The translations under genes were made by a program, and so were the position numbers. From contig NZ_CP101620.1 of assembly GCF_024399475.1 (NCBI RefSeq), positions 1,841,608-1,905,607 on the forward strand: a stretch of DNA of 64,000 nt. Direction: 5' to 3'. This DNA comes from Allocoprobacillus halotolerans (GTDB lineage Bacteria; Bacillota_I; Bacilli_A; Erysipelotrichales; Coprobacillaceae). Within the stretch, counting starts at the first letter, position 1. The number at the start of each line of letters is the position of its first letter. The notes below the pieces were generated by a model. The model saw only the letters and a program-made list of their open reading frames with translations, searched no databases and was not told the DNA's origin. Of this stretch, positions 10,113 through 57,715 are shown in pieces.

Positions 10113-10225
10113 GTCTTTGTGGCAGGGTGTAAGTCCCTACCGATGGTGATAGTCCATGACTCGCTTAACAGCGACTGATCTGGTGAAATTCCAGAACCGA
10201 CGGTATAGTCCGGATGAGAAAAGAC
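10113..10225 (+). ncRNA. FMN riboswitch (RFN element)
   Basis: The conserved blocks appear in order: GGCAGGGTG, AGTCCCTACCG, GGTGATAGTCC, CTGATCTGGTG, AAATTCCAGAACCGACGGT, ATAGTCCGGATGAGA. The flanking GTCTTT and AAAAGAC close helix P1. It lies upstream of two RibU-like transporter genes and a flavoprotein gene, so FMN would switch off riboflavin uptake. Confidence 0.95.
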
Positions 10226-10237
10226 AAATTCTATGCG

Positions 10238-10270
10238 ACTTAGACATTTTTTATGTTTAAGTTTTTTTTA
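10238..10270 (+). terminator. Expression-platform terminator of the FMN riboswitch
   Basis: ACTTAGACAT pairs with ATGTTTAAGT (one G-U pair) across a short T loop, followed by eight T. It sits between aptamer and start codon, so FMN binding probably ends transcription here. Confidence 0.8.
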
Positions 10271-10290
10271 GAAAAAGGAGATAGAAGAAA

Positions 10291-10898: not shown

Positions 10899-10912
10899 AG
10901 GGGAAAAAGAAA

Positions 10913-11554
10913 ATGAAAGTCAAACAATTAGCAACCATAGGTATTCTTTGTGCTTTAGCCATGATTTTAAACTTATTTGCATTTATTCCACTTGTTCCAA
11001 CAGTCAGTTGGTTAACATATGATCCTAAAGATATCGTTATTGTTATTGGGGGATTTATCTATGGTCCAATGACAGCCTTTTTGATGAGTGGTATTTGTTC
11101 TGTATTAGAAATTATGATAAAAGGTGGAAGCATCATAGATGTGATTATGAATATGATTTCCACTTGTTCATTTGCCTGTGTTGCTGCAACAATCTATAAA
11201 CATCAACATACGAAAAAAGGAGCGATGATTGGTTTATTAGCTGGGGTTGTTTTAACAGTCATTAATATGACAATTTGGAATTATATTGTTACACCAATCT
11301 ATTATGGTATGCCTCGAGAAGCTATTGTTGCCTTACTGTTACCGGGAATTATTCCTTTTAACTTATTAAAAGCAGGACTCAATGCAGGAATTACATTATT
11401 TTTATATAAGAGTATTGTTACAATTTTAAGACAGACTCATTTTGTAGAAGACACACATCAAACTTCACAAAAAAATATGTCTTTAGCTTTGATTGGTTTA
11501 TTTATTACTATTTCAATGATTTGTATCATTTTAGCAATTCAAAATATTATTTAG
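10913..11554 (+). CDS. Second ECF S component (RibU paralogue)
   Basis: 213 aa with AAAGGGG before the ATG. It is clearly paralogous to the preceding gene: GILCALAMILNLFAF, then WLTYDPKDIVIVIGGFIYGP and PGIIPFNLLKAGLNAG line up with the first copy. Six membrane helices form the S-component core. The C-terminus adds one extra hydrophobic helix (IGLFITISMICIILAIQ). It has the same riboswitch as the first copy, so riboflavin or a related flavin is the probable ligand. Two tandem RibU-like proteins may differ in affinity or ligand (riboflavin versus an analogue); this cannot be settled from sequence. Confidence 0.8.
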   Translation: MKVKQLATIGILCALAMILNLFAFIPLVPTVSWLTYDPKDIVIVIGGFIYGPMTAFLMSGICSVLEIMIKGGSIIDVIMNMISTCSFACVAATIYKHQHTKKGAMIGLLAGVVLTVINMTIWNYIVTPIYYGMPREAIVALLLPGIIPFNLLKAGLNAGITLFLYKSIVTILRQTHFVEDTHQTSQKNMSLALIGLFITISMICIILAIQNII

Positions 11555-21052: not shown

Positions 21053-22171
21053 ATGAAAGATTTAAAACAATGTCGTTATGAAATAGATGAAATAGATGAA
21101 CAGTTAATGGCTTTATTTGAAAAAAGAATGCAGGTTGCTAGAGATGTCGTGAATTATAAAATGGCTCATGATATGGAAATTTTTCAAAGTGCTAGAGAAA
21201 TAGAAGTTATTGAAAAAAATATATCACGTATTCAACATAATGATTTAAAACCTTATGCGAAACACTTTTTAACATCAATGATGAATATTTCTAAAACTTA
21301 TCAGTCAACTTTTTTATCTTTTGATAAAAATTTAGAATTTTATACACCAAGAATGGAAAATATTACGGTTGGTTTTCAAGGTGTGCCTGGTGCTTTTTCT
21401 CAAAAAGCTTTAGATACTTATTTTGGTCCACATACCAAAAAACAACATTATGACCATTTTAAAGATGTCTTTGAAGCTTTAAAAAATGATGAAATTGATT
21501 ATGGGATTGTCCCTTTAGAAAATTCATCCACAGGGGCTATTAATGATAATTATGATGCCATGAGAGATTATGACTTTTATATTGTGGGGGAACAAAGTCT
21601 TTCTGTTTCTCAGCATTTACTAGGAATCAAGGGAACACATCTTGAGAATATTCAAGAAGTTTATTCCCATCCTCAAGGCTTATTACAAACATCTTTATTT
21701 TTAGAAAAACATCATATTCAACCTCATACTTATGAAAATACCGCAATGGCAGCAAAATTTGTAGCATCTTTAAACAATCCTCATATTGGAGCTATTGCAT
21801 CTTCGCAGGCAGCGAAACTTTATAATTTAGATATTCTTCAAGAAAATGTTCAAAATGTTTCCAACAACGCAACCAGATTTATTATCTTTGGAAAACGTTT
21901 AGAGATTTCAGATGATGCATCATGTATCAGCATTGTGTTTACATTACCACATCAAGTCGGTGCTTTATATCAAATTACTAAAATTATTAATGATTACGCA
22001 ATTAATATGTTACGTATTGAATCAAGACCTTTATTAGAAACACCATGGGAATATTATTTCTATGTTGATTTAGAAGGAAGTTTAAAAAATCCTTCTATGA
22101 TACAAGCTTTACAAGATATCAAAGCTCATACCCAGACCATGAGAGTGTTAGGAAATTATGCCAAAAGATAG
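21053..22171 (+). CDS. pheA: Bifunctional chorismate mutase/prephenate dehydratase
   Basis: 372 aa. Residues ~1-90 are an AroQ-type chorismate mutase (RYEIDEIDEQLMALFEKRM, VARDVVNYK). Residues ~100-280 are prephenate dehydratase: VGFQGVPGAFSQ, GIVPLENSSTGAI, EVYSHPQGLLQ, and NNATRFIIFGK with the catalytic Thr. Residues ~285-372 are an ACT domain with VGALYQIT and the Phe-binding ESRP motif, so feedback inhibition by Phe is expected. Together these convert chorismate to phenylpyruvate. It is in a Phe T-box operon, consistent with its product. No tyrA is visible in the window. Confidence 0.95.
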   Translation: MKDLKQCRYEIDEIDEQLMALFEKRMQVARDVVNYKMAHDMEIFQSAREIEVIEKNISRIQHNDLKPYAKHFLTSMMNISKTYQSTFLSFDKNLEFYTPRMENITVGFQGVPGAFSQKALDTYFGPHTKKQHYDHFKDVFEALKNDEIDYGIVPLENSSTGAINDNYDAMRDYDFYIVGEQSLSVSQHLLGIKGTHLENIQEVYSHPQGLLQTSLFLEKHHIQPHTYENTAMAAKFVASLNNPHIGAIASSQAAKLYNLDILQENVQNVSNNATRFIIFGKRLEISDDASCISIVFTLPHQVGALYQITKIINDYAINMLRIESRPLLETPWEYYFYVDLEGSLKNPSMIQALQDIKAHTQTMRVLGNYAKR

Positions 22172-22664
22172 TCGTAATATTGTCTTGATTGGCATGATGG
22201 GATGTGGCAAAACGACGATTGCTCAGTTATTGAAAGTTCGTCTTGGGAAACAATGGATTGATATGGATATGTATATTGAAGAAAAATATCAAATGCGTAT
22301 TTCTGATATGTTTGATATTTCTGAACAATATTTTAGAGAAAGAGAAACAGCATGTTGTCTAGAAATTGCGAAAATGGAAAATATGATTATTTCAACTGGT
22401 GGTGGTGTGATTAAAAATCCCCAAAATATCGAAGCATTACATCAACATAGTTGTATCATTTATATAGATAGACCAATTCCTTTAATATTAGAAGATGTAG
22501 AAACAGCTTCACGTCCATTATTAAAAGAGGGTGCACAAAAATTATATGAATTATATGATCAAAGACACCCTTTGTATTTAGAAGCGTGTGATTATCATCT
22601 TCAAAATGATGGGACATTAGAGGATATTTGTCTCAAAATTATAAATATATTAAAAGAGCTATAA
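22158..22664 (+). CDS. aroK: Shikimate kinase
   Basis: 168 aa, overlapping pheA by 14 bases. P-loop GMMGCGKTT at the N-terminus, shikimate-binding MDMYIEEKYQMRISDMF and FRERE, then ISTGGGVIKNP and the lid region ETASRPLL. It phosphorylates shikimate ahead of AroA. Last gene of the operon. With aroF, B, A, C and K present, only dehydroquinase and shikimate dehydrogenase are missing from this locus and must be elsewhere. Confidence 0.95.
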   Translation: MPKDSRNIVLIGMMGCGKTTIAQLLKVRLGKQWIDMDMYIEEKYQMRISDMFDISEQYFRERETACCLEIAKMENMIISTGGGVIKNPQNIEALHQHSCIIYIDRPIPLILEDVETASRPLLKEGAQKLYELYDQRHPLYLEACDYHLQNDGTLEDICLKIINILKEL

Positions 22665-22899
22665 TGGAACTATTCTATTATGGTTTTTTTATAAGTTTAA
22701 AGATAGATATATTTTCTTATCTATAAAATATAAAAGAAATGGTCATCACAAAATCATAGCGAGTTTTTAATCGTTTTGCACAAAATCATGTTTTTTCATG
22801 AAATACTGTCATTTTTAAGCGATTTCAAATTATCTGTTCACAGAGCAGTTTGTTTGATGATATAATATGAAAAGAGATGGAAAGAAAAGGGTGAAGATT

Positions 22900-23787
22900 A
22901 TGAAAAAATATTTATGTGTGGATGTTGGTGGAACATCAATGAAAATGGCTGTTTTAGATGAAGAAGGTCAGATTCATGAAACAAAGAAAGCGAATGTACC
23001 ACCAACAATGGAAGATATGTATCAGGTAATTGTAGATACATTTAAAAGCTATCAAGGGTTAGAAGGTGTGGCTTTAAGTATGCCTGGTGCGGTTGATAGT
23101 GAAAAAGGAATTATTGGTGGTTCAAGTGCGATTGATTATATTCATGGACCGCATATCAAAGAAGATTTAGAAAATCGTTTGCATGTTCGTGTAGAAATGG
23201 AAAATGATGCTAACTGTGCTGCATTAGCTGAAGTTTGGAAAGGAGCTGCCAGTGATGTGCAAGATTGTTGTTTTATTGTTAGTGGAACAGGTATTGGCGG
23301 GGCTGTGGTCAAAGATCGCCGTATTCATAAAGGGGAACATTTACATGGTGGAGAATTTGGTTATATGATTGCTGAATTTGATTTTGATACGCATCTTATG
23401 AAAACATGGTCAGATGTTGGTTCAACAATGGCTGTTGTTCGAAGTGTTGCAAAAGAAAAGGGTGTGGATGTTTCTTCATTAGATGGTAAAGATATTTTTG
23501 ATCATTATCATGATGATCCTATTTATGAAAAATACGTGGATAAATATTATTATGTATTAGCTAATGGTATTTATAATTTACAATATGCTTATGATCCACA
23601 AAAAATAGTGATTGGTGGAGGAATTAGTGTTAGAGATGATTTATTAGATGAAATCAATCAACGTTTAGATGTGATTTTTCAAACATTTACACATGCAAAA
23701 ATACGTCCAGTTGTTTTGACTTGTCAATATCATAATGATGCGAATTTATTAGGGGCACTCTATCATTTCTTCACAGTCAATTCATAA
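22900..23787 (+). CDS. ROK-family sugar kinase or regulator-type kinase
   Basis: 295 aa from the ATG after AAGGGTGAAG. The phosphate-1 motif CVDVGGTSMKMAVLD opens the protein, followed by LSMPGAVD, ENDANCAALAEVWKG and SGTGIGGAVV, all typical ROK kinase features. No N-terminal helix-turn-helix is present, so it is an enzyme and not a repressor. The zinc motif CxCGxxGC of classic ROK glucokinases is absent: the corresponding stretch is EFGYMIAEFDF. Probable substrates are glucose, N-acetylmannosamine or another hexose. Zinc-free ROK members are common in Firmicutes. The gene has its own promoter region. Confidence 0.85.
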   Translation: MKKYLCVDVGGTSMKMAVLDEEGQIHETKKANVPPTMEDMYQVIVDTFKSYQGLEGVALSMPGAVDSEKGIIGGSSAIDYIHGPHIKEDLENRLHVRVEMENDANCAALAEVWKGAASDVQDCCFIVSGTGIGGAVVKDRRIHKGEHLHGGEFGYMIAEFDFDTHLMKTWSDVGSTMAVVRSVAKEKGVDVSSLDGKDIFDHYHDDPIYEKYVDKYYYVLANGIYNLQYAYDPQKIVIGGGISVRDDLLDEINQRLDVIFQTFTHAKIRPVVLTCQYHNDANLLGALYHFFTVNS

Positions 23788-23820
23788 AAATAAGATATAA
23801 TTTCATAGAGGTGATGATAA

Positions 23821-24501
23821 ATGGAAAAAGTGACACCTAGAGTGGATTCAAAATTAAGACATATTGTAGAAGTACCAAAGTGCATTTACGATGTTTCAGG
23901 TATAACAATTAATGGAAAAAGAGTGAAATCTTTGGTTTTTTCAACAGATGTTGCAATTATTGCAAATTGTAATGCAGATGCAGTAATTGCGGTCTATCCT
24001 TTTACACCAACCATGCAAATTACAAATGCCATTATTGAAGTGGCCCAAAAACCAGTGTTTGCAGGAGTAGGAGGAGGAACAACTGCTGGTCCCAGAGTTC
24101 ATAAAATAGCGTTGGATGCTGAATTACATGGAGCCACAGCCGTTGTCTTAAATGCACCAACGAAAACAAAGTTTGTGCAGGATTTGGCATCTATTATTGA
24201 TATTCCCATTGTTTTAACAGTTGTTTCTACTGATGAGCCATTAGAAGAAAGAATGCTTCATTCTGGCGCAAGTATTATCAATGTATCTGGTGGCAAAAAG
24301 ACAGTCGAAATTATTAAAGCGTTACGTGAAATTGATAAAGATTTTCCAATTATTGCGACTGGTGGTCCAAATGAAGAAACCATTCAAGAAGTCATTAAAG
24401 CTGGTGCCAATGCAGTGACTTATACACCACCAACAAATGGGGAAATATTTAAAGAAATGATGGAACGTTATCGTATTCAATGTTCTCATCATGAAGAATA
24501 A
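23821..24501 (+). CDS. TIM-barrel-like protein of unknown function
   Basis: 226 aa with GAGGTGATGATAA before the ATG. I do not recognise a named family. Alternating strands and helices (FSTDVAIIANCNADAVIAVYP, PVFAGVGGGTTAGPR, ATAVVLNAP, PIVLTVVS) and a late phosphate-binding-like loop (IIATGGPNEETIQEVIKAGANAVTY) suggest a beta/alpha barrel of the HisA/TrpF/IMPDH type. No catalytic set is obvious. It lies 33 bases after the ROK kinase and may be co-transcribed; a terminator follows. A role in sugar or phosphate metabolism is only a guess from the neighbour. Confidence 0.6.
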   Translation: MEKVTPRVDSKLRHIVEVPKCIYDVSGITINGKRVKSLVFSTDVAIIANCNADAVIAVYPFTPTMQITNAIIEVAQKPVFAGVGGGTTAGPRVHKIALDAELHGATAVVLNAPTKTKFVQDLASIIDIPIVLTVVSTDEPLEERMLHSGASIINVSGGKKTVEIIKALREIDKDFPIIATGGPNEETIQEVIKAGANAVTYTPPTNGEIFKEMMERYRIQCSHHEE

Positions 24502-24521
24502 TAGATAATTGAATAGTTATG

Positions 24522-24560
24522 TAAAGGAGTCTATGTTTGAAGGAACTCCTTTTTTATTTT
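24522..24560 (+). terminator. Rho-independent terminator
   Basis: AAAGGAGT pairs with ACTCCTTT across a 14-base loop, followed by a T-run, closing the ROK kinase/TIM-barrel unit. Confidence 0.8.
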
Positions 24561-24638
24561 AAGAACAATTCTTATTGAAATGATAAAAATAATGACTTTT
24601 TGAATGTTATTCGTTATAATAAGCGAGAGGTGAAAAAA

Positions 24639-25526
24639 GTGAAACAATATTTAGATATGTGTCAATATATATTAGAACATGGAGAAGATCGTGAAGATCG
24701 TACAGGAACGGGAACACGCAGTGTTTTTGGCTATCAGACACGTTATGATTTACGTGAGGGTTTTCCCTTACTTACAACGAAAAAAATGTTTTTAAGACCG
24801 ATTGCTGAAGAATTATTATGGTTTATTAAAGGTGATACCAATATTAAATATCTTGTTGATAGAAATGTGAAAATATGGAATGAATGGCCTTATGAAAACT
24901 TTAAAAAATCACCTGATTTCCATGGTGAAAGTTTAGAAGAATTTATTAGTAAGATCAAAACATTACCTGCAGATGATCCTTTTGTATTAAAGTATGGAGA
25001 ACTTGGGCCAGTCTATGGTAGACAATGGCGTAATTTTAATGAACAAGGTGTTGATCAGTTACAAAATCTCATTGATTCATTAAAAAACAATCCTTTTTCA
25101 AGAAGACATATTGTTAGTGCATGGAATCCTGTGGAAGTTGATCAAATGGCTTTACCACCATGTCATGCTTTCTTACAGTTTTATGTGTCAGCTGATCAAA
25201 AGTATTTATCTTGTCAATTGTATCAAAGAAGTGCTGATACATTCTTAGGTGTGCCTTTTAATATTGCTTCCTATGCATTGATGACAGCTATGTTAGCTCA
25301 GGTTTGTGGATATGAACCTAAAGAATTTGTGCATACAATTGGTGATGCACATATTTATAAAGATCATTTCGATGTTGTCAAAGAACAAATTTCAAGAGAA
25401 CCTTTACCACTCTGTCAATTAAAATTAAACCCAGAAATCAAATCATTATTTGATTTTACAATTGATGATATTCATATTGAAAATTATCAAGGTCATGGAA
25501 GATTATATGGAAAGGTGAGTGTCTAA
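24639..25526 (+). CDS. thyA: Thymidylate synthase
   Basis: 295 aa from the GTG placed 7 bases after GAGAGGTG; a longer in-frame start 13 codons upstream has no site. It methylates dUMP to dTMP with methylene-tetrahydrofolate. Motifs: [15 protein letters not shown] at the N-terminus, [18 protein letters not shown], and the catalytic cysteine in [14 protein letters not shown]. Also [20 protein letters not shown] and the C-terminal LYGKVSV. It shares its last bases with dfrA, the usual thyA-dfrA coupling that recycles dihydrofolate. Confidence 0.95.
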
Positions 25527-26001
25527 TGATTAGTATTATTGTGGCTATGGATGATGATCGTTTAATTGGTAAAAAAGATTCATCAAATGGAATGCCTTGG
25601 CATAATCCAGAAGACTTAAAACATTTTAAAGAAACAACAATCCATCAAACGATTTTAATGGGTTATACAACTTATCAGGCGATTGGTAGACCATTACCTA
25701 ATCGTCATACAATCATTGTTAGTTTTGAACCTTTTGAAGACAAGCGTGTGGAAGTCAGAACATCTTTAGAAGAAGTGATTCAAGAATATCAAGCAAGTGG
25801 AAAAGATTTATATATTTCAGGGGAGCTTCTATTTATAAACAGTCATTACCATTTGTCGATCAATTATTGATTTCTAGAATTAAAGGAAGTCATGAAGGAG
25901 AAACTTATTTTCCTGATTTTGAAGACTATGGCTTTGTTTTAAAAGAAGTGAAACCATTTGAAACATTTGATTTAGAAATATATCAAAGAGGTGTCCAATG
26001 A
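25526..26001 (+). CDS. dfrA: Dihydrofolate reductase (frameshifted)
   Basis: About 158 aa after repair. The start overlaps the thyA stop (TAATGA). The N-terminus [16 protein letters not shown] and MPWHNPEDLKHFKETT are typical DHFR, with MGYTTYQAIGRPLPNR. The frame breaks near 25823: GGGG needs GGGGG to read YISGGASIYKQSLPF, which contains the NADPH-binding GG. The end LEIYQRGVQ overlaps the start of plsC by ATGA. It reduces dihydrofolate made by ThyA. The break is in a homopolymer in an important gene, so it is probably a sequencing error. Confidence 0.85.
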
Positions 26002-26717
26002 AAAGAATTATATTTTTAGTCATTAGATTAATATATAGAATACCAGGATGGCTAATGACAATACATCGTTATAATAAACATAAAGAAGAAGTGAGTTTTG
26101 AAGAAAGATTTGATTTTACACAAAGATTAATTAGAAAAGTGAATGAAAAATCAAGAGTCAATATTCATTGTTATGGTCAGGAGAATTTGCCTGAAGAACA
26201 AGGCTATTTAATGGCGCCTAATCATCAAGGATTATTTGATGCCTTGATTTTAATTGGAACACATGATCGACCATTTCGTTTTGTAATTAAAAAAGAATTA
26301 ATGAATGTTTTTGTATTAAAAGATGTCTTACGTATGATTGATGCTTTAGCCATTGATCGTGAAAATATCAGAGCATCAGTGAAAGTTATTAGACAAGTTT
26401 CTAAAGATATGAAAAGTGGTATCAGTTATGTCATTTTTCCTGAAGGAACAAGATGCCGTCAACAAAACAAAATGCTAGAATTTAAGGGTGGAACATTTAA
26501 ATCTGTCATGGATGCGAAAAAACCAATTGTTCCAGTGGCATTGATTGATTGTTATAAGGTGTTTGATAATAATTCTATCGAAAAGGTAGATGCTCAAATT
26601 CATTATTTGCCACCTATCTTTTATGAAGAATATCAAGATATGAGCAGTATGGAAGTGGCTCGTCTTGTTCAATCAAAAGTAGAACAATGTATTTTAGAAA
26701 ATGAGAATAAATTTTAA
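25998..26717 (+). CDS. plsC: 1-acyl-sn-glycerol-3-phosphate acyltransferase
   Basis: 239 aa. The N-terminal hydrophobic helix (RIIFLVIRLIYRIPGWLM) anchors it at the membrane. The acyltransferase motifs are in order: NHQGLFD (HX4D), FVIKKELMNVF, VIFPEGTR, and VPVALIDC. It adds the second acyl chain to make phosphatidic acid. It is overlapped with dfrA by four bases, so thyA-dfrA-plsC form one transcript. A hairpin terminator follows at 26738. Confidence 0.9.
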   Translation: MKRIIFLVIRLIYRIPGWLMTIHRYNKHKEEVSFEERFDFTQRLIRKVNEKSRVNIHCYGQENLPEEQGYLMAPNHQGLFDALILIGTHDRPFRFVIKKELMNVFVLKDVLRMIDALAIDRENIRASVKVIRQVSKDMKSGISYVIFPEGTRCRQQNKMLEFKGGTFKSVMDAKKPIVPVALIDCYKVFDNNSIEKVDAQIHYLPPIFYEEYQDMSSMEVARLVQSKVEQCILENENKF

Positions 26718-26870
26718 AAAAGCGACATTATAAAATATGATGAGGGTTCGATATGTAAATTTCGAATCCTTTTTAAAATTGAATAAGGATAAATATTTGT
26801 GCATTATATATTAAACATGTCAATTGCATCATCAAAATTAAAGGGATGAATCAAGGTTTTTATTAATAAT
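26716..26870. repeat. Direct repeat copy A upstream of rhuM, containing the plsC terminator
   Basis: About 150 bases that recur at 28294-28446 with roughly three-quarters identity: shared blocks AAAAAAGCG, TATAAAATATGATGAGG, TTCGATATG, TCGAATCCTTTTT, AACATGTCAA or AGCATGTCAA. The TTCGA / TCGAA hairpin with T-run inside it (26744-26775) is the plsC terminator. The 26871-27063 remainder is AT-rich with no ORF. Confidence 0.65.
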
Positions 26871-27063
26871 TATTGATTATCGAATAATATTTTCAAAGAT
26901 ATCTTTCTCTTGTCAGATTTTATAATACTCAAAAATATAAGTAAAAAAGATTTTTTTGAAGATAGCTAAAATAAGTAGAACTTTGTAAAGCATAAGAAAA
27001 ATGATACAAATGATAATAAATAAAAGATATAATAGTATTTGAAAAATAAAGGAGGCTTACTGA

Positions 27064-28064
27064 ATGGATAATATTTCAAAAATGATTATTTATACAACCG
27101 AAGATGGATTAGTGAAAATAGAAACAACATTTAATGCTGAAACAGTTTGGTTATCATTAGATCAAATGTCATCTTTGTTTCAAAGAGATAAATCCACTAT
27201 ATCAAGGCATATTAAAAAAATTTTTGATGAAGGTGAATTAGTTCGTGAAGCAACTGTTGCAAATTTTGCAACAGTTCAAAATGAGGGAAATAGACAAGTA
27301 GAAAGAAATATAGAATATTATAATCTTGATGTTATTATTTCAGTGGGCTATCGTGTGAAATCAAAACGAGGAGTGCAATTTAGAATATGGGCAACTAATC
27401 TTATTAAAGAATATATGAGAAAAGGATTTGTGCTTGATGATGATCGTTTAAAAGAATTGGGTGGTGGAGGATATTTCAAGGAGTTGCTTGAAAGAATACG
27501 TGATATTCGTGCATCTGAAAAAGTGTTTTATAGACAGATACTAGAAATATATGCAACAAGTATTGATTATGATCCAACTGCTGATGTTTCTATCCAATTT
27601 TTAAAAAAGTACAAAATAAGGTTCATTATGCTATTCATGGTGAAACTGCAGCTGAAACTATCTATCATAGAGCAGATGCCAAAAAAGAATTTATGGGACT
27701 AACGACTTTTATGGGTAATCAGCCAACATTAAAGGAAGCAAAAATAGCAAAGAACTATCTCAATGAAAAGGAGTTAAAAGCAATGGGGCAACTTGTTTCA
27801 GGATATCTTGATTTTGCTGAAAGACAAGCACAGCGTGAACAAGCTATGACAATGGAAGATTGGGCAAAGCACCTAGATAATATTCTCACAGCGACTGGAG
27901 AACAATTGTTGGTTGGTAATGGTTCAATTTCTCATCAAAAGGCTATGGAGAAAGATGAAACAGAGTATAAAAAATATAAAGCAAGAACATTAAGTGACGT
28001 AGAAAAAGATTATTTAGATGCGATTAAGGAGTTAGAAAATTTGAAGGATAACGATAAGTTTTGA
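27064..28064 (+). CDS. RhuM family protein (frameshifted)
   Basis: About 333 aa after repair. The ATG follows AAAGGAGG. The break near 27603 is a run of five T that needs six to read FKKVQNKVHYAIHG. The N-terminal half holds a helix-turn-helix-like segment (WLSLDQMSSLFQRDKSTISRHIKKIF), then the RhuM core VERNIEYYNLDVIISVGYRVKSKRGVQFRIWA, TNLIKEYMRKGFVLDDDRLKE. The C-terminal half has FMGNQPTLKEAKIAKNYLNEKEL and an acidic helical tail. RhuM proteins are scattered on genomic islands and their molecular function is unknown. It lies between two direct repeats, consistent with acquisition as a cassette. Confidence 0.85.
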
Positions 28065-28293
28065 GAAATGTCCTTTGATTGTATTTGTATTGAAAGATAA
28101 TGAATGGCAAGTATGAATAGATATTATTAAAAATATTCTTATATTCGTGAAAATTATCATATAGATAAGATGATGTGGTATTGACCGCTAGAAATTTAAT
28201 ACAATAAATAGTATTTATTCTTTGTAGTATAAGTATGATAAATTATGAAAATTATAAGATGGCTAGTGAAAAATAGTAAGGTTATAGTAAATA
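28065..28293. other. Intergenic stretch after rhuM
   Basis: AT-rich with no ORF, RNA element or strong hairpin that I can support. Confidence 0.4.
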
Positions 28294-28446
28294 AATTAAA
28301 AAAGCGTTATAAAATATGATGAGGATTCGATATGAAAAATTCGAATCCTTTTTCAAATGTTATAAAGAAAAATGTTTGTATATTATACATTAAGCATGTC
28401 AAGTACATCATCATGATAAAAGGTATGAATTAAATTTTTTTATCCA
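28294..28446. repeat. Direct repeat copy B downstream of rhuM
   Basis: Second copy of the 26716-26870 sequence, including the hairpin GAGGATTCGA / TCGAATCCT with T-run at 28321-28355, although no gene ends here. A weaker shared block (GATTTTATAATACT) occurs near 28535 and 26917, so the copied unit may be longer than the clear 150 bases. Confidence 0.65.
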
Positions 28447-28657
28447 TAACACTAAATAGCTAAACAGTAAAATTATACGGATTATATATAGTATATTTGT
28501 TTAATAGTAAAAAAGAGACATTTCCATATATTTGATTTTATAATACTAAAAAAATTTTCTTACGAATTTTTTCACAAAAGCATTGATAAATTCAAAATAA
28601 TTTGTATTTGCATCCATGTTTAAAAGAAAAAACTACACGCAAAAGGTAGAAAAAAAC

Positions 28658-28686
28658 TTGATATATAAACGCTTTCAAGCTATAAT
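28658..28686 (+). promoter_or_regulatory. Near-perfect sigma-A promoter with cre-like site
   Basis: TTGATA (28658-28663), 17-base spacer, TATAAT (28681-28686). The spacer holds TATAAACGCTTTCA (28664-28677), which fits the CcpA cre consensus except for one position. Catabolite control of the lipoprotein gene is plausible. Confidence 0.65.
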
Positions 28687-28724
28687 ATATGTAGTTCAAA
28701 AAAGGAATGGGAAGGAGATTTTTT

Positions 28725-29696
28725 ATGAACAAATTATTAAAAGTTTTAGCTGCATCTGCTTTAGTAGCAACTGTATTAGTTGGATGTGGTAAGAAAGGTG
28801 AAACAGGCGGAGATGCAACAACTGCTGCAAAATATGCAAAAGCAGGTTTAGGAGTTGTTAGTAGCTATTCTGAAGATGGTCAAGTAAATACAACAATGGC
28901 TGCAGTAGGATTAGATGCTGACGGTAAAGTTCAATACATTGATATTGATGTTGCACAATCAACACCAGGTGGTGGAGATAAAGAAAAAACTCAAACTAAA
29001 AAAGAATTAAAAGAAAAATACGGTATGAAATCAGTTTCTGCTAGCATGGGTGTTATCAAAGATGGTGGAGAATGGTATGAACAAGCTGAATATCTTGAAA
29101 ATTACTGTAAAGGTAAAACAGCTGAAGAAATCGCTAACATTGAAACTGAAAAACGTGATGAAGAACATACTTCAGTACCAAAATCTGGTTCTGATTTAAC
29201 TGCTGGATGTACAATGGATATTGGAACATTTAAAGAAGCAATCGCAAAAGCTATCGCTAATGCTCAAGATGCTAATGCTGAAAAAATTGGTATTGGTGAA
29301 GTTATGTCAAATGGTGATGCTCAATTAGATACAACTATCGCTTTAGTAGCTACTGATGCCGATGGTAAAGTTGTTTATTCAAAAATTGATGTTGCACAAA
29401 TCAATAAAGATGTTACAGCTACTAAATCTGAAAGAAAAGATGATTATGGAATGAAATCAGTATCTGCAAGCATGGGTGCTATCGAAGGTGGAGCTGAATG
29501 GTATCAACAAGCTGAAGCGTTCGAAAAATACTGTAAAGGTAAAACAGCTGATGAAATTGCTAAAACTGCAACTGAAAAACGTGATGAAGAACATACTTCA
29601 GTACCAAAATCTGGTTCTGATTTAGCTGCAGGATGTACTATGGATATTGGTGCTTTCTTAGAAGCTATGTCTGAAGCATTTTCTAGTGCTAAATAA
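28725..29696 (+). CDS. Lipoprotein with two FMN-binding (flavinylation) repeats, PplA-like
   Basis: 323 aa from the ATG behind GAAGGAG. Lipoprotein signal peptide with lipobox LVGC at about residue 20, then two homologous ~140-residue repeats. Each repeat ends with a SGSDLTAGCTMDIG or SGSDLAAGCTMDIG motif, the position where FMN-bind domains are flavinylated on threonine. The two repeats share EKRDEEHTSVPKSGSD and YGMKSVSASMG almost exactly. This layout resembles PplA, the two-FMN lipoprotein of flavin-based extracellular electron transfer in Listeria. The next gene encodes an ApbE-type FMN transferase, which would attach the FMN. Outer-face membrane location. Confidence 0.75.
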   Translation: MNKLLKVLAASALVATVLVGCGKKGETGGDATTAAKYAKAGLGVVSSYSEDGQVNTTMAAVGLDADGKVQYIDIDVAQSTPGGGDKEKTQTKKELKEKYGMKSVSASMGVIKDGGEWYEQAEYLENYCKGKTAEEIANIETEKRDEEHTSVPKSGSDLTAGCTMDIGTFKEAIAKAIANAQDANAEKIGIGEVMSNGDAQLDTTIALVATDADGKVVYSKIDVAQINKDVTATKSERKDDYGMKSVSASMGAIEGGAEWYQQAEAFEKYCKGKTADEIAKTATEKRDEEHTSVPKSGSDLAAGCTMDIGAFLEAMSEAFSSAK

Positions 29697-29711
29697 TTTA
29701 ACAACGTGATA

Positions 29712-29743
29712 AGAAAACCATGAAAAAATTCATGGTTTTTTTC
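29712..29743 (+). terminator. Rho-independent terminator
   Basis: AAAACCATG - AAAAAATT - CATGGTTTT followed by T-run, directly after the lipoprotein gene. Confidence 0.85.
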
Positions 29744-29771
29744 ATATTTATTGATATAATGGATAACGGTG

Positions 29772-30901
29772 ATGAAATTGAAAAAAGGAATTTTAGGTTT
29801 ACTTGCTTTATCAATGTTAAGTTTAACTGTTGGATGTCAAAAGAAATATGAATTAATGAGTCATAATTTTATGGGACCATTTGATACAGTTACGACATAT
29901 ATGTCTTATGCTAATAATGAAGATGATTTTAATGAACAATGTGATTATATTGATGAACAATTAAATTATTATGATCATTTGTTTGATAAATATAGTACAT
30001 ATGATGGTATGAATAATTTAAAAACAATTAATGATAATGCAGGAAAAAAGCTGTTGAAGTTGATCAGACATTAATTGATTTATTAAATGTGAGTATTGAA
30101 CGTTATCAAACAATTTCTTCTAAAGTGAATATTGCTTTTGGAAGTGTGATTAGTATTTGGCATGATTATCGTGAAGAAGCAGAGGCAAATGGTGGCGTTG
30201 GTACAATACCAAGTGATGTAGCACTTGAAAAAGCCAATCAGCATACTAATATACAAAGTATTCAAATTGATGAACAAAAGAAAACAGTGTATATTGATGA
30301 TGCTTTGGTTTCTATCGATGTAGGAGCAACTGCCAAAGGTTATGCGATTGAACTGATTAAAGATGGTTTAATTGAAAAAGGTGTGGATAATTTCTTGTTA
30401 AGTGGTGGTGGTAATGTTGCCAGTCATGGAGAAAGAAAGATTGTTAAAGAAGGAGATTTTTACCTTGATGAATGTGCCAATAAATTCTGTGTTGGTATTG
30501 AATCACCTCAAGATGGAAATTATTCAGCAAGTGCAGATGATCCAGATAGTGAAAATGAAGCTGTTTTGGTTGTACAAGGTGAATCCATTGTCACAAGCGG
30601 TGACTATCAACGTTTTTATCAAGATATTAATGGTGTGAAATATCATCACTTGATTGATCCTGATACATTATATCCAGCTGTTCATTTTAGAAGTGTCAGC
30701 ATTATTACTGAAGATAGTGGGTTAGCTGATTTTTTAAGTTCAGCAGTCTTTTTAATGGAATATGAAGAAGGATTAGAATTAATTCATTCATTAGATGGGG
30801 TTGAGGCTATTTGGCTATTGGAAGATGGAAAAATCAAAATGTCGGATGGTTTAAAGGATAATGACAATATTTATGTCATTGAAAAATCAAGATTAGAATA
30901 G
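29772..30901 (+). CDS. ApbE-family FMN:protein transferase, lipoprotein (frameshifted)
   Basis: About 376 aa after repair. Signal peptide with lipobox LTVGC near residue 20, so it acts outside the membrane. The frame breaks near 30048, where six A need seven to give GKKAVEVDQTLIDLL. ApbE features: MGPFDTVTTYMSY, VSIDVGATAKGYAIE, LLSGGGNVASHG, IVTSGDYQRFY, HLIDPDTLYPA. ApbE/FmnB enzymes transfer FMN from FAD to a threonine of partner proteins. The preceding gene encodes a lipoprotein with two target-like motifs. A terminator lies between them, so transcription may be separate or by read-through. Confidence 0.85.
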
Positions 30902-30913
30902 GAGGAATGAAGG

Positions 30914-31153
30914 ATGCAAAGTTATAAAACAAAAGGAACATGTTCATCACGTATTGATTTTGATGTTGTGGATGGAAAAGTGACAGGTGTGAGATTTATT
31001 GGAGGATGTGCTGGTAATACGCAAGGTGTGGCACGACTTGTTGAAGGTATGAGTAAGGAAGAAGTGATTGCAAGACTAGAAGGTATTCGCTGTGGAGCGA
31101 AACCAACGTCTTGTCCTGATCAATTAGCACAAGCTTTAAAACAAGCTCAATAA
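30914..31153 (+). CDS. TSCPD domain protein (TIGR03905-type)
   Basis: 79 aa, 12 bases after apbE with AGGAGGAATGAAGG. The whole protein matches the small TSCPD family: CSSRIDFDVVDGKVTGVRFIGGCAGNTQGV, then IRCGAKPTSCPDQLAQAL with conserved cysteines. The same module is found at the C-terminus of B12-dependent ribonucleotide reductases. Stand-alone copies have unknown function. It may share a transcript with apbE. Confidence 0.85.
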   Translation: MQSYKTKGTCSSRIDFDVVDGKVTGVRFIGGCAGNTQGVARLVEGMSKEEVIARLEGIRCGAKPTSCPDQLAQALKQAQ

Positions 31154-31163
31154 ATAATATGTA

Positions 31164-31196
31164 TAGAGTACCTTTGATTGAGGTACTCTTTTATAT
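31164..31196 (+). terminator. Rho-independent terminator
   Basis: AGAGTACCT - TTGATTG - AGGTACTCT followed by TTTT. Confidence 0.85.
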
Positions 31197-31248
31197 GTTT
31201 TGATACTTTTTTATACATTTTTTTCATATGATAAATTAGGTGATAGTT

Positions 31249-31557
31249 ATGATGATACGTAGAATGAAAAAAATGCAGCTATTATGTGGAGTCTTTTTGA
31301 TATTGCAGTTACTTTGTTTTCAATGGATTATTCCTTTTCATTTATTAGCTGTTTTAGTTAGTTTGATTATTATTTTGAATCAAAGATGGTTTAGAGTCAT
31401 TCAATTACAATATCATTTTTATTTAATTTTATTATATTTTTATCGTTTGTGGATTTTGAGTATTGAAGGCTTTTATTTTTTAGATTTGATTTATGTGGTG
31501 TTTTGTTTATATATTGCGATTATGTTAATTCTTTTCTCTTTTCATTGTATCTTATAA
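31249..31557 (+). CDS. Small integral membrane protein, unknown
   Basis: 102 aa from the ATG after TTAGGTGATAG. A short basic N-terminus (RRMKKM) is followed by about four hydrophobic segments separated by short polar turns (NQRWF, RLW). No family is recognised. It ends about 40 bases before dnaE with no clear terminator between, so it may be part of the dnaE transcript. It could also be a spurious frame, though codon use fits its neighbours. Confidence 0.5.
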   Translation: MMIRRMKKMQLLCGVFLILQLLCFQWIIPFHLLAVLVSLIIILNQRWFRVIQLQYHFYLILLYFYRLWILSIEGFYFLDLIYVVFCLYIAIMLILFSFHCIL

Positions 31558-31598
31558 TGAATTTTTTTGTTATAATGTAGCATAAAGGAGGCGATAGG

Positions 31599-34500
31599 AT
31601 GTTTGGACATTTGCAGATTTATAGTGGTTATAGTTTTCAACAAAGTACAATTTTAATTAAAGACTTGGTTTTTGCTGCAAAGGAAAAACATTTGGATGCC
31701 TTAGCTTTAACGGATAAAAATAATATGTTTGCAGCAATGGAATTTAGTGAAGCATGTTTAAAAAATAATATAAAACCTATTTTTGGCATGGAAGCAAGTG
31801 TTTTGATTGAAGGCAATATTTATCCATTTATTATTTTAGCTATTGATGATCAAGGATATTTTGATTTGGTGCATATCTGTTGTGAAATTAACTTGAGTCC
31901 TGATCGTGCGATTGCGTTAGATAAATTAGCAAAGTATTATCAACATCTTTATATAATTTCAGGATTAGAAGATGGGATTGTGGAACGCCACGTGGCTAAA
32001 GAGATGGAAGATGAAGCGATAAAATATATGCGTTTATTTCAAGAACTTTTTCATGATCATTATTATATCATGTTGCAAAATCATCATTTGAAATTACAGG
32101 AAAAACTCAATGAACGCATCATGTCTTTAGCGCGTTATGTCAAAGTTAAAGTGATTTGTTCTAATGAAGTACGTTATTTAAAAAAACAAGATGCTTTAGC
32201 AGTTGATTTAATGCAGGCATCATTAAGTGGAATGGTGTTAGAAGCCAATTATGAACCATTAACACAGGAAAAATATTTAAAAGATGAACAAGAAATGAAA
32301 CAATTGTTTTCTCAAGAAATTATTGAAGAAACAAGACATGTTTTATCAACTTGTAAAGCAACCATTCCTTTAAATGAAAAATATTTACCGACTTATCCTG
32401 TGCCTCATTCTGGTAAAGCCGTGGATTATTTAAGAAGTTTATGTCATGTGGGATTAAAAAAACGTTTTCAAAATCAACAGATTCCTACATCGTATAAACA
32501 ACGTCTACAATATGAACTTCAAATTATTCATGATATGGGATTTGATGATTATTTTTTGATTGTCTGGGATTATGTGCGTTGGGCAAAAGTCCAAAAGATA
32601 CAAGTTGGACCAGGAAGAGGAAGTGCTGCGGAAGTCTGGTGGCCTATGTTTTAGGTATTACGAATATTGATCCACTTCATTATGACTTGTTTTTTGAACG
32701 TTTCTTAAATCCTGGACGTGTATCCATGCCTGATATTGATATTGATTTTCAGGATAATCGACGTGATGATGTGATTCGTTATGTTATTGAAAAATATGGA
32801 CAGGAACATGCTGCTCAAATCGTCACTTTTAATACATATGGGCCTCGAGTTGCTATTAAGGAAATGGGAAAAGTCATGGGTGTTCCTTTACCAAGATTAG
32901 AATTAATTGCCAAAATGATACCGACTTCTCCTAAAAATAAAAAAACTATTACACAAATGTATCAATCTTCAGCTCAGTTTCAATCGCTTATTAATCAAGA
33001 TCAGCGTTTAAAGAAAATTATTGGTGCAACAAGTGTGATTGAACATTTACCACGTAATATTTCGACTCATGCGGCAGGTATTATTTTATCAAAACGTGTT
33101 TTAAATGAAGTTGTGCCTTTAGTGATTGGTCCAACTTCAACCTTAATGAGTCAGTATTCTAAAGATTATATTGAAAAAGCTGGATTTTTAAAGATGGACT
33201 TTCTAGCTTTAAAAAATTTAACAATGTTAGATTATATTTGTAAAGATATTGAACAGAATCAAAACAAAAGAATTGTTTTAAATGATATTCCTCTTGATGA
33301 TGAAAAAACATATCGTCTAATTTCAAGAGCAGATACTTTTGGTATTTTCCAGTTAGAATCTTATGGGATGCGTCGTTTATTAAGACAAATGAAACCATAT
33401 TGTTTTGATGATATTGTGGCTGCGATTGCTCTGTTTAGACCAGGACCAATGGAAAATATTCCAACTTATCTCAAGCGTCGTAGTCATCAAGAAAAAATCG
33501 TATATCCTTTAAAAGAACTTGAACCGATTTTAAAATCAACTTATGGAATTATGGTTTATCAAGAACAAATGATGCAAGTTGCCCAAAAAATGGCAGGTTT
33601 TTCACTCGCAAAAGCTGATACACTAAGAAAGGCAACTTCTAAAAAGAAACTACCTTGATGTTATCAATGAAAGAAGAATTTATTAAAGGTTGCTTGCAAA
33701 ATGGTTTTTCTCAAGACAAAGCTGAGGAAGTTTTTGGATTGATTGAAAAGTTTGCGGATTATGGTTTTAATAAATCGCATAGTGTGGCTTATAGCTATGT
33801 AGCTTATCAGTTAGCTTATTTAAAAGCCAATTATCCACTTTATTTCTTTGCCTCTATTTTATCTAATGAATTATCAAGTGAAAATACCAAAGTTCATTGT
33901 ATTCAAGAATGTAAAGCATATCACTTGAAAATATTACCACCATCAGTGAATCATTCCCATGCGCGTTTTATGGTCGAGAATGGCCAGATTCGTTATTCTT
34001 TATTAGCAATTAAAAATGTTGGTTATGCAGGCTATAAAGCAATTATTGAAGAACGTCAAAAGGGAATGTTTAAAGATATTTATGATTTTATGATGCGTAT
34101 GGAACATTCTCATCTTTCTAAAAAAATGTTGGAATCATTGGTGGATGCAGGCGCTTTAGATGAATTTGATATGTCACGTCAGACAATTCTTAAAAATTTA
34201 GATGCGATTAGGGATTATGGGCATTTAAAAGAAAATCTAGGGATTGAAGAAAAACCGGTTTTAACGATTTATAAAGATAATCAAGAAGAAAAATTAATGC
34301 GAGAAAAGGCTGTTTTGGGTGTGTATTTATCCATGCATCCTCTTGAATTAAAGAAACAAAAAATTAATGTAGCTTATGTGGATGTCTCACGTTTAGATGA
34401 ATATGTTCAAAAGACAGTGAATGTTGTTATTCAGTTACAACGTGTAAAGAATATTACTGACCGTAAAGGTCAAGAAATGTGTTTTATTGAAGCAATGGAT

Positions 34501-34653
34501 GAAACGGGAAGTTTAGATGGTGTTGTGTTTGCTTCAAGGTACAAAAATATAGGAATGATGTTAAAGAAAGGAAATATTTGTCTTGTTCAGGGAAAAGTAG
34601 ATATGAAAGATAAATTATCTTTGATAGTGGATAAGGCAAGGGTGATTGAATAG
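31599..34653 (+). CDS. dnaE: DNA polymerase III alpha subunit DnaE (two frameshifts)
   Basis: About 1,018 aa after repair, the DnaE-type replicative/lagging-strand polymerase. It begins MFGHLQIYSGYSF (PHP domain, residues ~1-200). Catalytic motifs: GPGRGSAAGSLVAY, PDIDIDFQD with the two catalytic Asp, RNISTHAAG, GIFQLES, FRPGPM. A C-terminal OB fold follows near residue 900 (VNVVIQLQRVKNI). The first break near 32629 is GG that needs GGG. The second near 33653 needs one more base at CCTT before LMLSMKEEF. DnaE is essential, so both breaks are likely read errors. polA follows 2 bases after the stop. Confidence 0.9.
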
Positions 34654-34655
34654 AT

Positions 34656-37265
34656 ATGGAAGAATTAGTTTTGATTGATGGAAATTCATTGTTGTTTAAA
34701 GCCTATTATGCGACTGCTTCAATGGGAAATTTAATGGTCAACAAAGATGGTATTCCAACCAATGCAGTGTTTGGCTTTGCCAATATGTTACAAAAAATAT
34801 TAGAACGAGAAAGTGCTTATGTCGTTGTGGCTTTTGATTATGGGAAAAAGACGTTTAGAAATGATTTATTGGATCAATATAAAGCAACCAGAAAAGAAAC
34901 ACCAGATGAATTAAAATGTCAATTTGCGATGGTTCGTGAATTTTTAGATGCCTATCAGATACCTTATTATGAAATGGAAGGATATGAAGGGGATGATTTG
35001 ATAGGAACATTGTCTAAGTTAGGTGAACAACAAGGATTAAGTGTATCTATCTTTACGGGAGATAAAGATGCTTTCCAACTTGTTTCTAGTCAGACAACAG
35101 TTTATCGTACAGTGAAAGGTGTGACACAGCTTGATATTTATACACCTGACACTTTACAGGAAAAATATGGTTTAGCACCTGATCAAATTCGTGATTTTTT
35201 AGGATTGATGGGTGATAGTGCTGATAATATTCCAGGTATTAAAGGTGTCGGTGAAAAGACAGCTTTAAAACTACTTCATGAATATGGCTCAATTGAAAAC
35301 TTAAAGGAACATATGCATGAAATCAAAGGAAAAATGGGTGAAAAAATTCGTGAGAATATTGATTTAGGTCTTCAGTCTAAAAAAATTGCAACGATTTTAA
35401 GAGATATTCCGATGACTTTAGATTTAAATCAAGCACGTTATGATGGTTATGATTTTGAAAAATTAAAAGCTTTCTATACGCATTATGATATGAATTCATT
35501 ATTGAAAAAGATTTCAGTTGAATCACGTGTGGTTCAAAAAGCAGATTTTCATTATGAAATTGTCAAAGAAATGCCACCTATCCAAACCAATAGTAGTATT
35601 TTAGGGGCTATCTATGACCAAAATTATCATAAATCCATTGTTTTAGGTTATGCATTATATAATGAAAAACAAGCTTACTTTATCACTTTTGAAGATGCTT
35701 TAAAAGATCAGATGTTTTTAGCTTATTTAAAAGATCCACACTATCATAAATACAGTTATAATATCAAAGCTCAACTTTTATCTGCCAAATGGAATGGTAT
35801 TGATATTCAAGGTATGGATTTTGATTTACAGTTAGCCTCTTACATATTAAACCCAAGTTTAAAAGATGAAATGAAGTATATTGGAGATTATTATGGTTAT
35901 ACGTCTTTACAATATGAAGAAGAGGTTTTTGGTAAAAATGCGAAAAAGCATATTCCTGAATTAGACTTATTAGCCAAACATACAGTTTCTAAAGCCAAAG
36001 CTATCTATGATTTAAAAGATCAAGTGATTGAAAAATTAAAACAGGAAGAACAGTATGATTTATACCAAAACTTAGAACTACCTATCACTTATATTTTAGC
36101 TGATATGGAATATGTAGGGGCAAAAATTGATGTTGATGTTCTTAAAAAATTGGAACAGACTTTTGACGTACAAATTAAAGATATTGAAGAAGATATTTAT
36201 ACTTTGGCCGATGAAAAGTTTAATATTGCCTCTCCTAAACAATTGGGTGATATCTTATTTGGTAAATTAGGTTTACCAAATGGGAAAAAGACAAAGAGTG
36301 GTTATTCAACATCACAGGATATATTAGAAAAAATTGAAGATTTACATCCTATTGTACCATTGATTCAACAATATCGTATGTTGACAAAACTCTCATCAAC
36401 TTATGTTAAAGGTTTACAAGAACAAGTATTTCCTGATGGCAAGATTCATACCATCTTTAATCAAGCTTTAACACAGACAGGACGTTTATCTTCGATTGAT
36501 CCTAACTTACAAAATATTCCTGTTCGTCAAGAAGAAGGAAAACTAATTCGTCAAGCTTTTGTAGCGAGTCATGATTATTTGATTTCTTTTGACTATTCTC
36601 AGATTGAATTACGTATTTTGGCTCACTTAGCTAAAGTCAAATCATTGATTGATGCTTTCCATCAAAATAAAGATATCCATACTCATACGGCTGCGTTGGT
36701 GTTTAAAGTTAAAGATGAAGATGTGACACCACAAATGCGACGTCAAGCAAAAGCAGTCAATTTTGGTATTATTTATGGCATGGGTGAATTTAGATTATCT
36801 AAACAAATTGGTGTGAGTTTATCAGAAGCTAGAGAATTTATTCGTCGTTATTTTGAAGAATATCCTGAAATTAAAAAATATATGGAAAATGTGGTTGAGG
36901 ATTGTAAACGTGATGGCTATGTATCCACTGTTTTAAATCGTAAACGTTATATTCCAACGATTCATGATAAAAACTTTATGGTGCGTGAACAAGCCAAACG
37001 TTTTGCGATGAATTCCCCAATTCAAGGAAGTGGTGCGGATATATTGAAACTGGCAATGATTCAAGTGGATCGTTTAATGAAAGAAAAACATTTAAAATCA
37101 CAAATGATTTTACAAGTCCACGATGAATTGATTTTTGATGTATATAAAGAAGAATTAGATGAGATGATGACCATTATTAAATCTGCGATGGAAAATGCTT
37201 TCCAGATGGAAGTGCCATTAAAAGTAGATGGAACTTATGCAACCAACTGGTATGATTTAAAATAG
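34656..37265 (+). CDS. polA: DNA polymerase I
   Basis: 869 aa. Residues ~1-290 are the 5'-3' exonuclease/FEN domain (LIDGNSLLFKAYYA, FDYGKKTFRN, EGDDLIGT, SADNIPGIKGVGEKTA). Residues ~300-460 correspond to the 3'-5' exonuclease fold, but the catalytic DxE motif is missing, so proofreading is presumably lost, as in Bacillus Pol I. Residues ~470-869 are the polymerase: TGRLSSIDPNLQNIP, DYSQIELRILAHL, RRQAKAVNFGIIYG, QVHDELIFDV. It repairs DNA and processes Okazaki fragments. It is followed by mutM after 7 bases in a repair/replication operon. Confidence 0.95.
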   Translation: MEELVLIDGNSLLFKAYYATASMGNLMVNKDGIPTNAVFGFANMLQKILERESAYVVVAFDYGKKTFRNDLLDQYKATRKETPDELKCQFAMVREFLDAYQIPYYEMEGYEGDDLIGTLSKLGEQQGLSVSIFTGDKDAFQLVSSQTTVYRTVKGVTQLDIYTPDTLQEKYGLAPDQIRDFLGLMGDSADNIPGIKGVGEKTALKLLHEYGSIENLKEHMHEIKGKMGEKIRENIDLGLQSKKIATILRDIPMTLDLNQARYDGYDFEKLKAFYTHYDMNSLLKKISVESRVVQKADFHYEIVKEMPPIQTNSSILGAIYDQNYHKSIVLGYALYNEKQAYFITFEDALKDQMFLAYLKDPHYHKYSYNIKAQLLSAKWNGIDIQGMDFDLQLASYILNPSLKDEMKYIGDYYGYTSLQYEEEVFGKNAKKHIPELDLLAKHTVSKAKAIYDLKDQVIEKLKQEEQYDLYQNLELPITYILADMEYVGAKIDVDVLKKLEQTFDVQIKDIEEDIYTLADEKFNIASPKQLGDILFGKLGLPNGKKTKSGYSTSQDILEKIEDLHPIVPLIQQYRMLTKLSSTYVKGLQEQVFPDGKIHTIFNQALTQTGRLSSIDPNLQNIPVRQEEGKLIRQAFVASHDYLISFDYSQIELRILAHLAKVKSLIDAFHQNKDIHTHTAALVFKVKDEDVTPQMRRQAKAVNFGIIYGMGEFRLSKQIGVSLSEAREFIRRYFEEYPEIKKYMENVVEDCKRDGYVSTVLNRKRYIPTIHDKNFMVREQAKRFAMNSPIQGSGADILKLAMIQVDRLMKEKHLKSQMILQVHDELIFDVYKEELDEMMTIIKSAMENAFQMEVPLKVDGTYATNWYDLK

Positions 37266-57714: not shown

Positions 57715-57715
57715 A

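Follow-up and report, generated by a model that had tools for sequence, protein, structure and literature searches.

The window studied here, a 64 kb stretch (C1:1841608-1905607) of the 2.93 Mb genome of Allocoprobacillus halotolerans (G000 in our survey; completeness estimate 97.9%), holds the gene of a two-domain lipoprotein resembling PplA, followed by apbE, the gene of a FAD:protein FMN transferase (FAD, flavin adenine dinucleotide; FMN, flavin mononucleotide). The explanation that we prefer, to which as a whole we assign a probability of roughly 0.55, is that the lipoprotein serves as a surface flavin wire fed by Rnf rather than by Ndh2 and demethylmenaquinone, and that its promoter is under sugar repression of the cre type (catabolite-responsive element). 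The type of protein is already known; its wiring, as proposed, would be a new variant. Gut Firmicutes are usually read as fermenters. The lipoprotein gene and its parts lie in the window as follows:

28725..29696, + strand: two-domain FMN-bind2-type lipoprotein (PplA-like), 323 residues, lipobox LVGC (open reading frame; profile match to 2KZX; repeat fold closest to 3O6U and 2KZX)
28830..29276, + strand: FMN-bind-like repeat 1, residues 36-184 (repeat alignment)
29271..29693, + strand: FMN-bind-like repeat 2, residues 183-323 (repeat alignment; structure model available)
29193..29213, + strand: flavinylation-like motif DLTAGCT, residues 157-163, predicted FMN on Thr163 (column pattern in 31 homologues)
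29619..29639, + strand: flavinylation-like motif DLAAGCT, residues 299-305, predicted FMN on Thr305 (column pattern in 31 homologues)

A first-pass annotation, made from the letters of the window alone, had described two repeats each ending in D-L-x-A-G-C-T, and this was borne out: repeats 1 and 2 share 91 of 140 aligned residues (65%). Their length (~141-149 residues, n=2) is slightly under the ~160 residues (often even numbers) published for FMN-bind2 domains. The published flavinylation motif is D-x-x-[ST]-G-A-[ST] (PMC12052999), of which DL[TA]AGCT keeps the D, the G and the final T, but positions 4 and 6 are A and C. We aligned the motifs of 31 homologues, excluding the three-repeat homologue L006 and the duplicate loci L018-L020. 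In repeat 1 the first position is D or E in 31/31 and the last T or S in 31/31, with G at position 5 in 14 and, at position 6, C in 24 and V in 7; the corresponding figures for repeat 2 are 30/31, 31/31, 13, 24 and 7. This conservation led us to reject the motif as a chance string. The acceptor residue is invariant in kind (T/S) and the remaining motif positions are relaxed; judging from sequence, flavinylation of the lipoprotein by ApbE is likely.

Neither Pfam nor NCBIfam gave a family name for the window lipoprotein, and a search of the PDB with its single sequence returned no useful match. A profile built from the 31 homologues, in turn, found PDB entry 2KZX with an E value of 1.8e-8, and 2KZX carries DAISGAT; a weak match to PF04205 (FMN_bind) was present in 6 of the 31 homologues (best E 0.00056). 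The first structure model, made from 4 sequences, was weak (predicted local distance difference test, pLDDT, 70.4), and a model of repeat 2 from 11 aligned repeats reached a pLDDT of 82.7. The repeat model placed two entries at the top in VIA-align: 3O6U (Z 9.2, root-mean-square deviation 2.7, 104 residues) and 2KZX (Z 8.9, deviation 3.6, 106 residues). On the profile match and the model alignment, the lipoprotein repeats are FMN-bind domains. 3O6U is an FMN-bind1 structure, and a protein with two FMN-bind2 domains is known from an Erysipelotrichaceae bacterium (Huang et al., mSystems 2024, PMC11334425; preprint PMC10979944); the profile and fold matches, together with that published protein, place the lipoprotein in the known two-FMN-bind2 type.

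Downstream of the lipoprotein gene the block continues with:

29711..29742, + strand: terminator-like hairpin between lipoprotein and apbE (14 pairs, then a T run)
29772..30901, + strand: apbE (FAD:protein FMN transferase), broken frame (second fragment matches PF02424; the frame changes close to the A-run 30044-30049)
30914..31153, + strand: TSCPD-domain protein (TIGR03905), third gene of the block (domain match; gene order common to relatives)
22100-34700 (surrounding the block on both sides): frame-break region with folA, apbE and dnaE (low-accuracy assembly; the rnf breaks are at L012)

An ApbE-type lipoprotein had been annotated at this place, and ApbE does follow, only not as one open frame. 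The gene is split into two open reading frames (29769-30074 and 30089-30901), and comparison (tblastn) with the intact protein of Massilimicrobiota timonensis An13, the nearest named relative of the locus (order Erysipelotrichales), puts the frame change near the A-run, apparently one A short. The second fragment matches PF02424 with E 1.8e-47 and 162.6 bits against a cut-off of 25.6, and the first fragment alone has no PF02424 match. In An13 and three other congeners apbE is one open frame of 379 codons. A comparison over the syntenic 12.5 kb found frame breaks in 3 of 11 orthologous genes (folA once, apbE once, dnaE twice), and rnfC, rnfD and rnfB are frame-broken in the same assembly. Assembly or sequencing error is the likeliest cause of the split apbE, given the breaks in these other genes and the intact copies of the four congeners; on the same grounds we rejected a true apbE pseudogene, a true loss being less probable. 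A single ApbE was found in the genome. To call it the lipoprotein's own FMN transferase, as had been done, is thus misleading: as the sole ApbE found it would serve RnfD and RnfG too. The order lipoprotein-apbE-TSCPD is common to the four congeners and to several other genera of the family. As a separate observation, the TSCPD protein recurs near lipoprotein-ApbE or EetA-EetB (window 30914-31153; L100:3972-4271; L112:62-322). The locus is also mosaic among relatives (window 28725-31153 compared with L019, L020, L029 and L030): the lipoprotein of G002 is like that of G004 (94.8% of DNA), its apbE like that of G003 (95.9%), and the TSCPD genes of those pairs are 82-83% alike, as if alleles had been exchanged between species.

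Upstream of the lipoprotein gene we found:

28658..28686, + strand: sigma-A type promoter TTGATA-17-TATAAT (11/12 consensus matches)
28664..28677, no strand assigned: cre-like operator TATAAACGCTTTCA in the promoter spacer (14-mer, 14 of the 17 spacer bases)

The near-consensus promoter with a cre-like spacer that had been noted from sequence is indeed there, and the 14-mer between -35 and -10 has one mismatch to what we take to be the cre consensus. By sequence alone this match is no better than chance, with 2 sites at one mismatch or fewer in the 64 kb against ~2 expected; the pattern used first, which was stricter, had 0 matches in the window. We therefore rejected judging the site by sequence alone, and the weight it deserves comes from position and recurrence. 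TTG...TATAAT with its 17-base spacer is kept in 10 anchored relatives, and a cre-like element (two mismatches or fewer) lies in the promoter spacer in 8 of 21 upstream regions scanned, at the same promoter position in four genera. In the 8 sequences picked for carrying the element, identity is 90% in the spacer, 97% in the core and 49% in the 40 bases upstream of -35; over all 11 anchored regions, with and without the element, the values are 71%, 79% and 45%. The exact TATAAACGCTTTCA occurs in the window, L002, L030, L021, L022 and L027, and L003, L029, L032 and L034 differ from it by one change or more; the spacer of L024 and of more distant loci is without it. Repression of the lipoprotein promoter by a preferred sugar is, on this sequence evidence, plausible.

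The pair had first been likened to PplA and FmnB of Listeria, with the suggestion of an electron-export branch repressed by preferred sugar and of a search for EetA/EetB, Ndh2 and DmkA. In that search EetA-like (PF07009) and EetB-like (PF07456) genes were present, ~0.3 Mb and 1.46 Mb from the lipoprotein; PF07009 is presumably EetA, in agreement with the gene order observed. UbiA/DmkA (PF01040) had no match in the genome, the same search being positive in 14/14 control genomes. Ndh2 was not among the proteins behind all 17 PF07992 stretches of the genome, which belong to CoA-disulfide reductase-like, TrxB, AhpF-like, two bilirubin-reductase/OYE-like (old yellow enzyme), GltA-like, GltD-like and TrmFO proteins, two PF21688 FAD-dependent proteins, a DAO-type oxidase, a UDP-galactopyranose mutase and two 3-hydroxyacyl-CoA dehydrogenases. 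Three Ndh2 queries (from a spirochaete locus and two genomes of genus g42) produced only weak, distant BLAST matches to those PF07992 loci. What survives of the likeness is a lipoprotein resembling PplA, predicted to be flavinylated twice, and its partner of the ApbE/FmnB type; the Listeria wiring is not supported, no UbiA/DmkA and no Ndh2 having been found, and for this genome we rejected a Listeria-type system on that ground.

The genome does encode Rnf, as rnfC-D-G-E-A plus a short rnfB (L012), with three of the six frames broken. Two components of Rnf stand out, here and in relatives:

L072:6122-7984 and L012:7364-9216: RnfD extended by two FMN_bind domains (in G003 DTSTGAT in both)
L012 ~11104-11468; also L067-L069, L072-L076, L084, L091: short RnfB, ~100-126 codons (helix plus one PF04060 domain)

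Matches to FMN_bind in the genome are confined to two domains in the C-terminal extension of RnfD, to RnfG, which carries a canonical flavinylation motif, and to one more, frame-broken lipoprotein; no reductase fusion is among them. In the window's family RnfD was found in 18/18 lipoprotein-positive genomes, 17 of them with open frames of at least 483 residues (483-730) and G000 with its own frame broken at 400, while none of the 16 lipoprotein-negative genomes with RnfD has a listed frame above 388, these counts ignoring phylogeny.

We surveyed 294 genomes, including G000, with a cut-off of E 0.001 for lipoprotein matches. The lipoprotein had matches in 110 genomes, of which only part was inspected and at least three (G107, G243, G292) are spurious; ApbE was matched in 222 and RnfD in 223. 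ApbE was detected in 101/110 lipoprotein-positive genomes versus 121/184 others (Fisher 1.5e-7), and RnfD in 97/110 versus 126/184 (Fisher 1.2e-4), values that take no account of kinship. ApbE adjoins the lipoprotein in 17 of 31 unique loci, with flanks of 1.5 kb or ended by contig ends. The lipoprotein is clustered with rnf genes in at least six relatives (G005, G006, G013, G097, G212, G214), genomes that were chosen for having both genes on one contig or fetched for another reason. G097 and G212 share the arrangement lipoprotein-apbE-rnfC-D-G-E-A-EetA-EetB, with no rnfB in the cluster; in G105 a lipoprotein match lies ~5.6 kb beyond rnfD, outside the operon. The six rnf-cluster genomes stand at two places in the lipoprotein tree, three of the window's family together (99/96) and the other three grouped with a Clostridia sequence (95/82). 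The deepest split of the tree is weak (61/99), and the label test covered the Rnf-cluster and g42 rows only, so that two origins of the Rnf link do not follow.

Other loci tie the lipoprotein to flavinylation: lipoprotein-EetA-EetB-TSCPD in G189, lipoprotein beside EetB in G162 and lipoprotein-ApbE-EetB-TSCPD in G198. Thirteen lipoprotein-positive genomes had no detected RnfD (eight of genus g42, two spurious), and Rnf is thus not obligatory. In genus g42 (L107-L110) apbE adjoins Ndh2, polyprenyl synthase and UbiA in 4/4 genomes examined (G071, G111, G130, G151), and this Ndh2 has a long C-terminal extension; among lipoprotein-positive genomes lacking RnfD, Ndh2 was examined in these four, all of g42 and two of them near-identical. 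A three-repeat homologue of a spirochaete (L006) lies near Ndh2, ApbE, EetB and EetA.

The gene context of the rnf clusters in relatives, together with the failure to find UbiA and Ndh2, makes Rnf the likelier donor in this genome. EetB is a FAD-binding ECF-S protein (substrate-binding component of an energy-coupling factor transporter) required for PplA flavinylation (PMC9973259). In the mechanism that we propose, an EetB-type exporter would supply FAD from inside to ApbE, which would attach FMN to Thr163 and Thr305 of the lipoprotein and flavinylate RnfD and RnfG as well. Electrons would reach the outer flavins via Rnf, by way of the two extra FMN_bind domains of RnfD, presumably outside, and the RnfG motif; Rnf would pass them on to the lipoprotein as extracytosolic wire, and the lipoprotein could hand them to small soluble acceptors such as flavins, ferric iron and environmental quinones. 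With preferred sugar present, a CcpA-type repressor would probably close the lipoprotein promoter at the cre-like site.

Several observations weigh against this explanation, and some of them favour others. Apart from the neglect of kinship in the co-occurrence values and the RnfD counts, the spurious matches and the way in which the rnf-cluster genomes were chosen, the lipoprotein lies ~285 kb from rnf in this genome, where the Rnf link comes from relatives, and 11 lipoprotein-positive genomes besides the spurious ones have no detected RnfD. This missing linkage, with G088 and G189 carrying the lipoprotein without detected RnfD and no reductase fused to FMN_bind in the genome, would suit a flavinylated lipoprotein with another donor or job, such as reduction by free flavins or environmental quinones at the surface, service to an extracellular reductase or redox buffering in the cell wall; its placement in the rnf clusters of six genomes, which belong to two parts of the order, argues the other way, and we regard this reading as unlikely. 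Extracellular electron transfer of the Listeria type, in which electrons pass from Ndh2 to a demethylmenaquinone synthesized by DmkA/DmkB and from its quinol to the flavinylated lipoprotein, has precedent, PplA acting in a pathway that depends on Ndh2 both in L. plantarum and in Listeria (PMC9888254, PMC9973259), and the surroundings of L006 and of apbE in g42 agree with it. With neither UbiA nor Ndh2 found in a genome of this completeness, we consider it very improbable here, the least credible of the readings weighed.

The chemistry and the control of the wire invite doubt as well. The motif departs from DxxSGA[ST], position 5 being G in fewer than half of the homologues in either repeat and position 6 C or V, and in G088, where neither ApbE nor RnfD was detected, the motif persists. 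If DLxAGCT were no longer an ApbE site, the repeats might carry flavin without a covalent bond, or carry none; the acceptor Thr/Ser, present in 31/31 in both repeats, and the repeated linkage to ApbE and to EetB (FAD supply) make this improbable. The lead of the FMN-bind entries in VIA-align is small, the next rows being a CO dehydrogenase subunit (7.8) and IscU (7.6), and Foldseek with both models found nothing at E <0.001, its first row being IscU at E ~0.01 to 0.02; the FMN-bind reading stands despite this since the top two VIA-align rows are both FMN-bind entries and one is also a sequence match. At the promoter, 13 of the 21 upstream regions scanned have no close cre match in the spacer. 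The best CcpA candidate (L077) scores 258.5 bits, under the family cut-off of 442.35, and six other stretches match the same model, as would suit an operator bound by some LacI-family repressor that is not CcpA. The candidate, on the other hand, has a CcpA-like helix-turn-helix and adjoins murC-like and YtxH-like genes (read by eye), an order which we take to be that of Bacillus, and we hold a different LacI-family repressor to be rather doubtful.

Beyond this genome, the lipoprotein sits in the rnf clusters of six relatives and apbE lies beside Ndh2 and UbiA in four g42 genomes, and on these grounds one lipoprotein family may serve either input, Rnf or Ndh2 with quinone. RnfB bears on a wider proposal. 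In the order it mostly has ~90-140 codons, consisting of a membrane helix and a PF04060 cluster domain (ten sequences read); of six short RnfB scanned with Pfam, 6/6 had PF04060 and 0/6 a Fer4-type domain. Among the matches listed, at least 15 genomes have an RnfB of 260-298 codons, 12 in g4, g12, g14 and g16 (window's family) and three in g27, and two long RnfB that were scanned have several Fer4-type domains each; the RnfB row of G054 is a 433-codon frame with internal stops. We tentatively suggest that Rnf of the Erysipelotrichales could have been rebuilt as an electron exporter, with an RnfB mostly reduced to one membrane helix and a small [4Fe-4S] domain and lacking C-terminal ferredoxin-type clusters, an RnfD to which FMN-bind domains have been added and a detachable lipoprotein with two flavins that carries the electrons off, and that the sister genus g42, without detected RnfD, plugs the same family into Ndh2 and demethylmenaquinone, giving one wire with exchangeable inputs; this wider proposal is less probable than the Rnf-fed wire in G000. 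Judged by its listings, the literature searched held no paper on short RnfB in Erysipelotrichales and none naming the genus Massilimicrobiota with flavin or electron transfer.

Some features of the surrounding DNA deserve mention in their own right. Between plsC and the lipoprotein (window 27064-28064) there are open reading frames additional to the An13 locus. An FMN riboswitch followed by two RibU-like ECF-S genes (by eye; window 10109-11554) marks a flavin supply ~18 kb upstream. A group II intron with reverse transcriptase occupies window 55916-57716, and a near-identical second reverse transcriptase lies at L013:11047-12372 (by-eye comparison). Just beyond the window (~1906-1911 kb of C1; L052, L055) two bilirubin-reductase-like/OYE-type genes adjoin, one with a shortened frame.

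If true, an Rnf-fed wire would allow reducing power to be disposed of outside the cell without quinones, cytochromes or Ndh2, and searches for extracellular electron transfer genes modelled on the Listeria locus would miss such bacteria. The Rnf-linked and Ndh2-linked versions of one lipoprotein family within one order offer a direct test of the donor. Among known proteins, the Erysipelotrichaceae protein of Huang et al. (2024; PMC11334425) comes from the same broad group and, like the one described here, has two tandem FMN-bind-type domains and is predicted to be doubly flavinylated; the available parts of that paper give no wiring, operon context or regulation for it, and the shared type does not imply orthology to the window lipoprotein. 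CPE2226 (PDB 3O6U) and A3DHT5 (PDB 2KZX) share the FMN-bind fold as single domains in a different gene block. With the PplA/FmnB system of Listeria and L. plantarum (PMC9888254, PMC9973259) our locus has in common the flavinylated surface lipoprotein, predicted here, the ApbE partner and the EetB FAD exporter; it differs in that no Ndh2 or DmkA and no extracellular electron transfer cluster were found, in the separate location of the EetA-like and EetB-like genes and in Rnf as the more probable donor. For multi-flavinylated RnfG, a role in carrying electrons to acceptors outside the cell has been proposed (Meheust et al., eLife 2021, PMC8238504). In those Rnf clusters the extra flavins are described on RnfG, whereas here the predicted sites are on RnfD and on a separate lipoprotein, which in relatives lies in the rnf cluster itself.

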